Assembly: GCA_009889625.1 (NCBI GenBank)
Contig: WTZU01000004.1
Span: forward strand, 1-64,000
Reading direction: 5' to 3'
DNA from: Candidatus Hikarchaeia archaeon HikBin5
Lineage (GTDB): Archaea; Halobacteriota; Halobacteria; Halobacteriales; Hikarchaeaceae
Length of the DNA stretch: 64,000 bases
Made by a program: the position numbers and the translations under genes. The notes beneath the pieces are model-generated. The model saw nothing but the letters and a program-made list of their open reading frames with translations. It ran no database searches and was not told the DNA's origin. Positions 20,096-22,907 of the stretch are shown here, in pieces; the first letter of the stretch is position 1; the number at the start of each line of letters is the position of its first letter.

Positions 20096-21055
20096 ATGAA
20101 GTGCACCAAGTGTGATCAGAATGCAATTATTTTTACACCATATTCTGGATCTCATCTTTGCTCTGACCATTTCATCAATTCTGTAGAACGAAGGGTTCGT
20201 CATAGGATTCGAACCGATGGATTAATCAAAGGATCCACTGAAGATTCTCCTTCTAGATGGGTGATAGGGGTTTCTGGAGGAAAGGATTCTGCAGTATTGA
20301 CTCATATTTTGCATAATATGCTAGATAAGGACCCCCGTGTACAACTCATCGCACTAACGATAAACGAAGGAATTTCTGGTTATAGGGATGAAAGTATTGA
20401 AGTTTCCAAACAACTCACCAATTCGTTGGGAATTGCCCACAAAATTTTCAGCTATTCCGATGAGTTTGGAATAGATATGGACGAAGTAGTCCAAAAAAAC
20501 CCCTTGAAGCTTAATGCTTGCTCCTATTGTGGTGTTTTCCGAAGAAACCTTCTAGACCTCGGTGCAAATGAACTTAATGCAAATAAATTATTTACTGGAC
20601 ATAATCTCGACGATGAATCTCAAACTGCATTCATGAATTTCCTCTCTGGGGATGTGTCTAGGATAACAAAACATTTCGATGCTTCTTTGGCCCCTTTCCC
20701 ACAAAGAACAGAAACCGCATTCATCCCCCGGTCAAAACCACTTAGGGATATCCCCGAAAAAGAAGTGGCATTGTATGCCTATGTTAAAAATATTCCCTTC
20801 TATGATGGGGATTGTCCATATGCTGTGGATTCTTTTCGTGGAGAAGTGAGAAAATTAATTTTAGAGTTAGAAGATAACCACCCTGGAACTAGGCATTCTA
20901 TTATGGCGGGTTATGAGGAATTCGCCACTATTGCATCTTCTCATTACCAATCTAATAAAGAATCATCTCTGCAGCAATGTACAAAATGCGGGTCTCTTAC
21001 CACTCAAAAAATCTGTCAGAAATGCGTTTTCGTCGAAGCTGTTAAAGCTGTCTAA
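20096..21055 (+). CDS. tRNA 2-thiolation protein, NcsA/TtuA/CTU1 family (TIGR00269-like)
   Basis: 319 aa; CxxC zinc motifs at both ends, [17 protein letters not shown]-loop, [22 protein letters not shown]. Confidence 0.88.
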
Positions 21056-22182
21056 CGAATAACGTCTAGTCCATTCACTTGTTCTATCTCGCGTCTACCT
21101 CCATCGGACCAGCGGGAATCTCCATCCGCGAGACTTCTAATAGGTGCGCTTTGCATCCTCGACGATGGCCCTAATACTTGGGCACTCTGCACACCTGTCA
21201 TTATTGCCAATACACGAACCTTTCCTTTGTATTCTTCTTCCACTCTAGCCCCCCAAATGACATTTGCAGTTGGATCAAGACGTTCTGTAATATTGTCTGC
21301 AATGCCTTCTGCCTCTTTTAATGTCAAATCTGGCCCACCAGTTATGTGGACCAATGCTCCCGAAGCCCCTCGGTAATCTACATCTAGCAATGGGTGGTTC
21401 ATGGCGTCCCGAACAACTTCTTCTGTCTTGTTCTTATCTTGGGTCTCTCCAACTAACATTACCGCAACACCACCCGAAGACATGACCGCCGCCATATCTG
21501 CATAATCGAGATTGATTAGAGATGGTTGGGTTATTGTTTCAGATATGCCTTTCACAGTTTCTGCGATAATCTGATCCATTACTGAAAATGCCTTTCCAAT
21601 TGGTAAATTAGGCACATAGTCCAAAAGTCTATTATTGTCTAACACAATTATGGAATCTGCACTTTCTCGTAGTGCTTCTAGGCCCTCTTCTGCTTTAACG
21701 GTTCTAGCACGTTCTATATTGAATGGAGTGGATACCATCCCGATGACTATTGCACCTTGTTCTTTTGCAATTTTACAAACCACTGGTGCAGAACCGGTTC
21801 CAGTTCCGCCTCCCATACCTGCAGTTACAAAGACCAAGTCTGCTCCTCCTAGTACCTCCTTCACAGTTCCAGCAGCCATTTCTGTTGCACGTTCTCCCAT
21901 GGCTGGATCGCCACCCGCCCCTAGGCCACTCGTCAACGATTTACCTACAAGAATTTTAGTGTCGGCTTCTATCATTTTTAGGTGCTGTTTATCTGTATTT
22001 ATTGCAACAGTTTCTGCACCATGGATCCCTATATTATATAGTCGGTTGATGGTGTTGTTACCTGCACCTCCACACCCCACAACAACAATGCGTGGCTCTC
22101 CAAATTCGTCATCCCTGAGGGATGTTTTTTTCGCTCTTTCCTTTTCCTCATTTTGTAATGCTTCCTGAACAATATCTAACAT
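21052..22182 (-). CDS. ftsZ2: Cell division protein FtsZ (FtsZ2-type)
   Basis: [27 protein letters not shown] tubulin signature, and the [11 protein letters not shown] start typical of haloarchaeal FtsZ2; start taken at 22182, 2 nt after the upstream RHH gene. Confidence 0.93.
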
Positions 22183-22184
22183 AA

Positions 22185-22361
22185 TTATACCCTCACCCAC
22201 GGCCTTGAATCGTTAAACTCATATGGCACTTCGTTCTCTCTCAACATTTCTCTAATGGCAGATCGAATTGCCTCACTTCTATTAGGAAATTCTCCTCTTT
22301 CGACCATCTGTTCAACTTCTGCTATCTGTTGCTTCGGAATTCTAAGTGTTATTCGTTCCAT
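22185..22361 (-). CDS. cdrS: Small ribbon-helix-helix regulator, CdrS-like
   Basis: 58 aa [58 protein letters not shown]; below the ORF-track length cutoff; directly upstream of ftsZ2, as for CdrS in haloarchaea. Confidence 0.9.
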
Positions 22362-22396
22362 TTTAGTTATTCTCCCCGTGTTTTGTAAGACGCTAA

Positions 22397-22482
22397 GTCA
22401 TCAGGTGTATGACGGTCCTCGGAAACACTGTAGGCGTTTTGTCCTACATTGTCTGCTATGAGGCACGTATTTGTCTTACGTG
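22397..22482 (-). promoter_or_regulatory. Leader of cdrS-ftsZ2 with three successive inverted repeats
   Basis: GTCAT-caggtgt-ATGAC (22397-22413), TGTAGG-cgttttgt-CCTACA (22429-22448), CACGTA-tttgtct-TACGTG (22464-22482). Confidence 0.7.
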
Positions 22483-22501
22483 GGTGTACCTACTGGGACC
22501 A

Positions 22502-22513
22502 AGTATATAAATT
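22502..22513 (-). promoter_or_regulatory. TATA-like box for the cdrS-ftsZ2 transcript
   Basis: Reverse strand AATTTATATACTT about 140 nt upstream of the cdrS ATG. Confidence 0.5.
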
Positions 22514-22710
22514 TATCGCAAAATTGTAGTACAAATGCAAACTATTCTTGCAATTTTATCCTCATTTTTTATCTAAAATATAATCCATTTTCGGCATTAT
22601 AGTGTCAATTTTTTCATATTAATTCTTGAAAAAATACTTTATGTAATGTCTTACGCAAATTTATAATTTTCAACCAACTTCTATCTATTTGTATTACAAT
22701 ATGGAGAAAA

Positions 22711-22784
22711 TCCGGCTTCCCCGATTTGAACGGGGGACAAAGCGGTCTACAGCCGCCCACTCTACCAGGCTGAGTTAAAGCCGG
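22711..22784 (-). tRNA. tRNA-Tyr (GTA)
   Basis: Reverse complement CCGGCTTTAACTCAGCCTGGTAGAGTGGGCGGCTGTAGACCGCTTTGTCCCCCGTTCAAATCGGGGAAGCCGG; acceptor stem pairs; anticodon GTA. Confidence 0.94.
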
Positions 22785-22907
22785 ATATGCTCCACTATAG
22801 TGGTTTTTGCGATTTAACTATTGTCATAATGAAGTAAAGATCAGGAGGGCGGACCACAATTCTCAACCGCAAATGATAAACGCAAAACAGCAGTAACCGT
22901 GATTGGT

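Follow-up and report, generated by a model that had tools for sequence, protein, structure and literature searches.

A candidate tandem operator array for a CdrS-family regulator in the cdrS-ftsZ2 leader of a Halobacteriales archaeon

The leader of the cdrS-ftsZ2 operon described here is probably a worn and recoded tandem array of operators for a ribbon-helix-helix (RHH) regulator of the CdrS family, making it a candidate for auto- or cross-regulation. The proposed mechanism starts from an ancestral unit, TTGTCWGACAA, which would have been recoded in this lineage to the mixed forms GTAAGAC, GTCTTAC, GTCNTAC and GTANTAC. These units would recur with every helical turn between the transcription start and the ribosome-binding region, with more copies upstream of the TATA box, and each would be bound by one CdrS-family RHH dimer, all on the same face of the DNA. 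Here, occupancy of the array would control both initiation and early elongation of the cdrS-ftsZ2 operon, in a feedback loop tying the supply of FtsZ2 to the amount of regulator. The sign of this regulation is more likely to be repression, given that unit 1 covers the predicted start site.

The cdrS-ftsZ2 locus and its operator-like units

The window, which is the whole 64-kb stretch of DNA that was analysed, has a GC content of 40.2% and belongs to an incomplete genome of 1.07 Mb; its closest relatives are metagenome-assembled genomes that carry the label Halobacteriales. The Hikarchaeia (Marine Group IV) have genomes of about 1.2 Mb with 41% GC and are the closest relatives of haloarchaea (PMC7599335); the size and GC content found here would fit that group. 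The initial annotation placed a small RHH gene followed by ftsZ2 on the minus strand, and both identities are borne out by domain models. The first gene, cdrS (22185..22361, minus strand), encodes a 58-aa protein that matches RHH_1 (E 5.5e-9) and the NCBIfam CdrS model, and is 67-69% identical to haloarchaeal CdrS. Directly 3' of it is ftsZ2 (21052..22179, minus strand), which carries Tubulin and FtsZ_C domains and scores 405 bits with TIGR00065. The locus is conserved in relatives, and two sister species carry it. Separately, the score of CdrS with the NCBIfam model TransRegCdrSHalo is 99.6 bits, just under the model cut-off of 100, and automatic annotation may consequently miss cdrS in this lineage.

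The TATA-like box that had been proposed upstream of the leader was confirmed as AATTTATATAC at 22513-22503 on the minus strand, where it is kept in both sister species. Its position predicts a transcription start near 22480. The leader downstream of it was scored with a matrix trained on methanogen-side leaders only, which finds units whose 5' ends on the minus strand are 22481, 22459, 22449, 22415 and 22393, all but one in phase modulo 11. Unit 1 (ACGTAAGACAA, 22471..22481; score 9.5, phase 1) is at the predicted transcription start, in the same place as haloarchaeal element A, with 10/11 bases kept in three species. Unit 2 (ATAGCAGACAA, 22449..22459; score 10.7, phase 1) follows 22 nt after unit 1, and unit 3 (ATGTAGGACAA, 22439..22449; score 8.2) is one base out of phase; each has 8/11 bases kept. 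Unit 4 (CCGTCATACAC, 22405..22415; score 5.7, phase 1) is 66 nt downstream of unit 1, shares bases with the left arm of the third inverted repeat discussed below, and reads GTCATAC or GTCGTAC in 3/3 species. The last, unit 5 (GCGTCTTACAA, 22383..22393; score 8.0, phase 1, 10/11 kept), is found 88 nt after unit 1, where it adjoins the ribosome-binding region and occupies the same place as haloarchaeal element B'. All five are given on the minus strand. The unit does not account for the conserved block ACCTGATGACTT that lies between units 4 and 5.

The same matrix finds further units upstream of the TATA box, with 5' ends at 22534, 22656 and 22699 on the minus strand. The first of these is the palindrome TTGTACTACAA (22524..22534), which lies outside the predicted transcript; its unit core begins 53 nt before element A, as compared with 52 in most haloarchaea. 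The second, GCGTAAGACAT (22646..22656; score 7.7), is a GTAAGAC unit in the window; the two sisters have GTCGTAC and GTCATAC there. These forms represent the same kind of mixed unit in opposite orientation, which suits a dimer that recognises a palindromic unit. The third is the distal palindrome TTGTAATACAA (22689..22699; score 8.3), in which 10/11 bases are kept in three species. In both TTGTANTACAA palindromes upstream of the TATA box, i.e. the one at 22524..22534 and the distal one, the three species differ at the central base only. The distal palindrome of the window species has a tRNA-Tyr gene (22710-22785) immediately upstream of it; no such gene can be seen within 400 nt upstream of cdrS in either sister species.

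Several measures set the leader apart from its surroundings. Its fixed-phase score is 33.9, a value reached in 0/1000 shuffles (these average 4.0, sd 2.9), and it is the top-scoring 120-nt stretch of the 64-kb window (the next scores 17.0). Across the three species of the genus, conservation of the leader units is 80% (44/55 positions), as opposed to 50% (23/46) in the rest of the same leader stretch. The short blocks that are kept in the genus are GTAAGAC at the predicted start, GTC[AG]TAC between, and GTCTTAC before the ribosome-binding region. Two features of RHH tandem operator arrays are found here: the array adjoins a small RHH gene (CdrS, 58 aa, RHH_1), and its palindromic units are in helical phase, one window unit being off by 1 nt. 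Motif-free autocorrelation at 11 nt gave no clear peak in the three sister leaders, nor in haloarchaea, which is expected if the units are inverted or degenerate.

Genome-wide scans of the window's own genome were made by patterns only. The exact TTGTANTACAA occurs there in three copies, two at this locus and one inside an endonuclease III-like gene (identified by eye), and on this count a genome-wide regulon was rejected.

Inverted repeats, chance and RNA folding

Attention was first drawn to the leader by three perfect inverted repeats and a recurring heptamer, and all of these were found again. The repeats are on the minus strand: stem 1 at 22482-22464 (6 bp, 7-nt loop), stem 2 at 22448-22429 (6 bp, 8-nt loop) and stem 3 (GTCAT ... 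ATGAC) at 22413-22397 (5 bp, 7-nt loop). GTCTTAC/GTAAGAC is present three times (22385-22391, 22473-22479 and 22648-22654), with the near match GTCCTAC at 22441-22447. Dinucleotide shuffles contain a mean of 0.49 such inverted repeats, and at least three in 0.8% of cases. GTCTTAC itself has 5 copies in the whole window, where 4.25 are expected, and the probability of three copies within 270 nt is about 4e-4 over the window for that word.

Could the repeats have arisen by chance in an AT-rich spacer? Some heptamer occurs three times in 32% of shuffles of this AT-rich stretch, so that the repeats alone are weak evidence, and 1.9% of the window's 121-nt tiles hold as many hairpins as the leader. 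The same elements, however, are conserved at matching positions in the sister species, and about 100 haloarchaea share the architecture. Because of this conservation, chance is refuted as an explanation and is considered exceedingly improbable. Instead, since the leader units are found by the methanogen-side matrix, the heptamers are degenerate versions of a single 11-bp palindrome, most of them in phase at 11 nt, with the three upstream units (22524-22534, 22646-22656 and 22689-22699) as further copies outside the span that was first noted. The near-even spacing of the three stems is about 3 x 11 nt, or roughly three units.

The proposal that the three stems form a structured 5' UTR was not supported. 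When the leader was aligned with those of the two sister species, 72% of the pairs of stem 1 and 44% of those of stem 2 were kept, and the three stems as a conserved structure were rejected for these two. Stem 3 is the sole conserved one, with 100% of its pairs kept and one A-U to G-U change across species. Covariation was seen in none of the three.

A broader reading is that the leader acts as a folded RNA, either through a junction closed by GTAAGAC:GTCTTAC or through the three hairpins, and that this fold controls translation or stability of the cdrS-ftsZ2 mRNA. Consistent with it, the leaders of the three species fold better than shuffles, modestly so (z -2.3, -1.9 and -1.6), and the GTAAGAC:GTCTTAC helix appears in the two sisters as part of the minimum-energy fold, and in the window as part of the centroid fold. 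Of the cells of the junction, 98% are kept in the three sequences, one change being two-sided; this level of conservation does not exceed that of shuffles. The spacer separating elements B and A' in haloarchaea gives better folds than its shuffles do, despite its differing sequence (mean z -1.96, n=77; control -0.47), and ribosome profiling of Halobacterium suggests post-transcriptional control of the operon (PMC8303175).

Nevertheless, folding as the main function of the leader is quite unlikely. Stems 1 and 2 lack conservation, the heptamers vary so little that they give no covariation, and an alignment of 98 haloarchaeal leaders finds little beyond the heptamers; two-sided changes exist among those leaders, mixed with violations. 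There is no Rfam match to the leader, tRNAs being the only known RNA families matched above threshold in the window. Further, an RNA fold leaves unexplained both the 11-nt phase and the copies that are conserved upstream of the TATA box and in front of other promoters. An RNA layer in addition to the operators is possible, more so in haloarchaea. A separate observation concerns the cdrS leaders of two families of the same order (L131, L132, L133 and L134). In these, the A-B palindrome is followed by a hairpin loop GGGTCA with a possible pairing partner, TGACCC, downstream; in L134, GGATCC replaces both, and by eye this looks like an RNA pseudoknot with two-sided changes.

Relatives, reported CdrS sites and the identity of the binder

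The form from which the window units would have been recoded is found in methanogen-side Halobacteriota, whose cdrS leaders carry the 11-bp palindrome TTGTCWGACAA in tandem with an 11-nt period. Autocorrelation in these leaders gives z values of 15.9, 17.5, 11.7, 8.0 and 6.1 at lags of 11, 22, 33, 44 and 55, respectively. The 28 distinct leaders contain 146 units, and 97/111 of the gaps between them are multiples of 11 (11 nt in 69, 22 in 24, 33 in three and 44 in one). The unit extends to more distant loci: among 20 further RHH hits, at least one unit is present in 10/10 with ftsZ next (one of these loci, L253, was already in the matrix set) and in 0/10 without ftsZ. The strict pattern GTCWGAC-N4-GTCWGAC has a hit in 4 genomes only among 40 methanogen-side genomes, two of them at cdrS, because the units vary too much for exact patterns.

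Haloarchaea share the recoded type. The leaders of about 100 haloarchaea have GTAAGAC-N4-GTCTTAC at the start, followed by another GTAAGAC and then GTCTTAC before the ribosome-binding region; all four heptamers are present in 86/99 distinct leaders. GTAAGAC and GTCTTAC are 4 nt apart, which places the centres 11 bp apart, in 80/98 cases, and a unit-like heptamer is found upstream of the TATA box in 94/99 leaders, mostly 52 or 65 nt before element A. In both haloarchaea and the window lineage, recoding to GTAAGAC/GTCTTAC has left most units half GTC/GAC and half GTA/TAC. The palindrome GTAAGAC-N1-8-GTCTTAC is present in 84/98 haloarchaeal genomes, once in nearly all. Among the listed places that were compared with cdrS positions, it is just upstream of cdrS, bar one extra copy.

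A link from the ancestral unit to CdrS comes from Haloferax. GTCNGAC-N4-GTCNGAC was counted 44 times across 12 haloarchaeal genomes, as against once for a control pattern, and in Haloferax this unit pair precedes the ftsZ1 start codon by 57 nt and hisB by 78-79 nt. CdrS ChIP sites include ftsZ1 and hisB, at -50 and -76 from the transcription start (PMC8406309). The ancestral unit therefore matches the CdrS ChIP sites of Haloferax, the match being one of gene identity and distance and not of a motif logo. The dacZ promoters, another reported CdrS target (PMC8406309), carry one unit in Haloferax; some other genera have two, and one has none. As the pairs before ftsZ1 and hisB stand at the ChIP distances, the methanogen-side cdrS leader arrays are probably CdrS sites as well, i.e. 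sites of autoregulation.

The Haloferax volcanii sites and the window array are alike in the regulator family and in the symmetry of the sites, and the ancestral unit pair lies before ftsZ1 and hisB in Haloferax at fitting distances. They differ in that the former are upstream of other promoters, with the cdrS promoter absent from the H. volcanii ChIP list (PMC8406309), whereas the window has an array through the cdrS leader composed of recoded units. The window leader has no exact GTCNGAC-N4-GTCNGAC, and its units are recoded and degenerate; for these reasons, it was not filed as a Haloferax-type CdrS site. There are no units at the ftsZ1 promoters of the window's genus, so that the Haloferax link to ftsZ1 is not common to it. 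Other haloarchaeal two-unit sites (L256, L262, L267, L269, L270 and L271) are candidate CdrS targets in their own right, and the genes behind them include a GTPase, a DUF7093/DUF6432 divergent pair, a ParA-like ATPase and a PdxS-like (SOR/SNZ) gene.

The suggestion that the heptamers are CdrS operators thus stands in part. They are variants of the 11-bp unit that matches the Haloferax CdrS ChIP sites in gene and distance, they are in 11-nt phase, and they are present upstream of the TATA box. CdrS, or in haloarchaea possibly CdrL, may occupy the array. In haloarchaea, the protein reported at the cdrS promoter is CdrL, and CdrL ChIP-seq in Halobacterium gave one reproducible site in the genome, upstream of cdrS (PMC7439475). 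That lone site fits the single palindrome per genome.

These data bear on the reading in which the recoded units are operators of another protein that replaces CdrS, which would be CdrL in haloarchaea and another RHH protein in this genus, such as the 130-140 aa one of the sister genomes. It differs from the preferred explanation in the identity of the binder alone, and so the confidence placed in the two overlaps. The single CdrL site, the likewise essentially single-copy GTAAGAC-N-GTCTTAC palindrome at cdrS, the lack of a reported cdrS promoter in CdrS ChIP and the presence of a second RHH gene in the genus all speak for a different binder. On the other side, recoded-type units persist in three lineages where no CdrL was found (the window genus, G015 and G031), and the second RHH protein has no link to the leader site. 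Replacement of CdrS is accordingly possible, though doubtful.

CdrL was looked for in two ways. There is no full-length CdrL match in the window genus (G000-G003, whose genomes are 58-78% complete), and none is encoded adjoining cdrS in the window or in the two further lineages. The GTAAGAC-N1-8-GTCTTAC palindrome, the putative haloarchaeal type of CdrL operator, is also absent from G000-G003, where only the outer elements are kept. CdrS is the common factor across the lineages with units. As for the second RHH protein, it is 130-140 aa long with a charged C-terminal part and is conserved in the genus (L230 and L232 in the sister genomes); the matching loci L231 and L233 have a different long ORF, which by eye resembles a replication protein A partner.

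A more speculative history, which is rather unlikely as a whole, would combine both regulators. In the ancestor of haloarchaea and their marine sister lineage, an older CdrS autoregulatory array would have changed from GTC to GTA one half-site at a time, so that every unit came to combine an old half with a new one. A mixed dimer of CdrS and CdrL could recognise sites of this kind; alternatively, they could mark a hand-over from CdrS self-regulation to its paralogue CdrL, with the present lineage keeping a stage without CdrL.

Comparison with known regulators and meaning for the operon

Arc, MetJ and CopG are RHH autoregulators with tandem operators, in which short palindromic units are placed near one helical turn apart. 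The array described here resembles these operators in its short palindromic units, their spacing of about a helical turn and their position beside or before a small RHH gene. The sequences differ, however, and here the units extend along the 5' UTR as far as the ribosome-binding region of an operon that also encodes a division protein. Small RHH regulators of archaeal cell-division genes are known from Sulfolobales in the form of aCcr1. It is alike in being a small RHH regulator of archaeal cell division, but it controls ESCRT-type division genes and matches the NCBIfam CdrS model weakly (E 0.0024).

The closest parallel in place is CdrL of Halobacterium salinarum, which is also an RHH protein, is encoded adjoining cdrS and has a genome-unique site upstream of cdrS-ftsZ2 (PMC7439475). 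In contrast to the window array, no motif was found for that site in the text of the paper, and CdrL was not found in the window's genus. In the papers found by a literature search, the cdrS leader array is not described, and a search for the heptamer gave incidental hits only.

The pair cdrS-ftsZ2 is widespread in archaea, and the papers searched hold no account of how the level of CdrS is set. A conserved operator array at cdrS-ftsZ2 is a concrete, testable claim of auto- or cross-regulation. In addition, the array supplies a sequence for candidate CdrS sites outside haloarchaea and offers an explanation for the single CdrL site in the genome. It is also a possible case of operator recoding between two related regulators.
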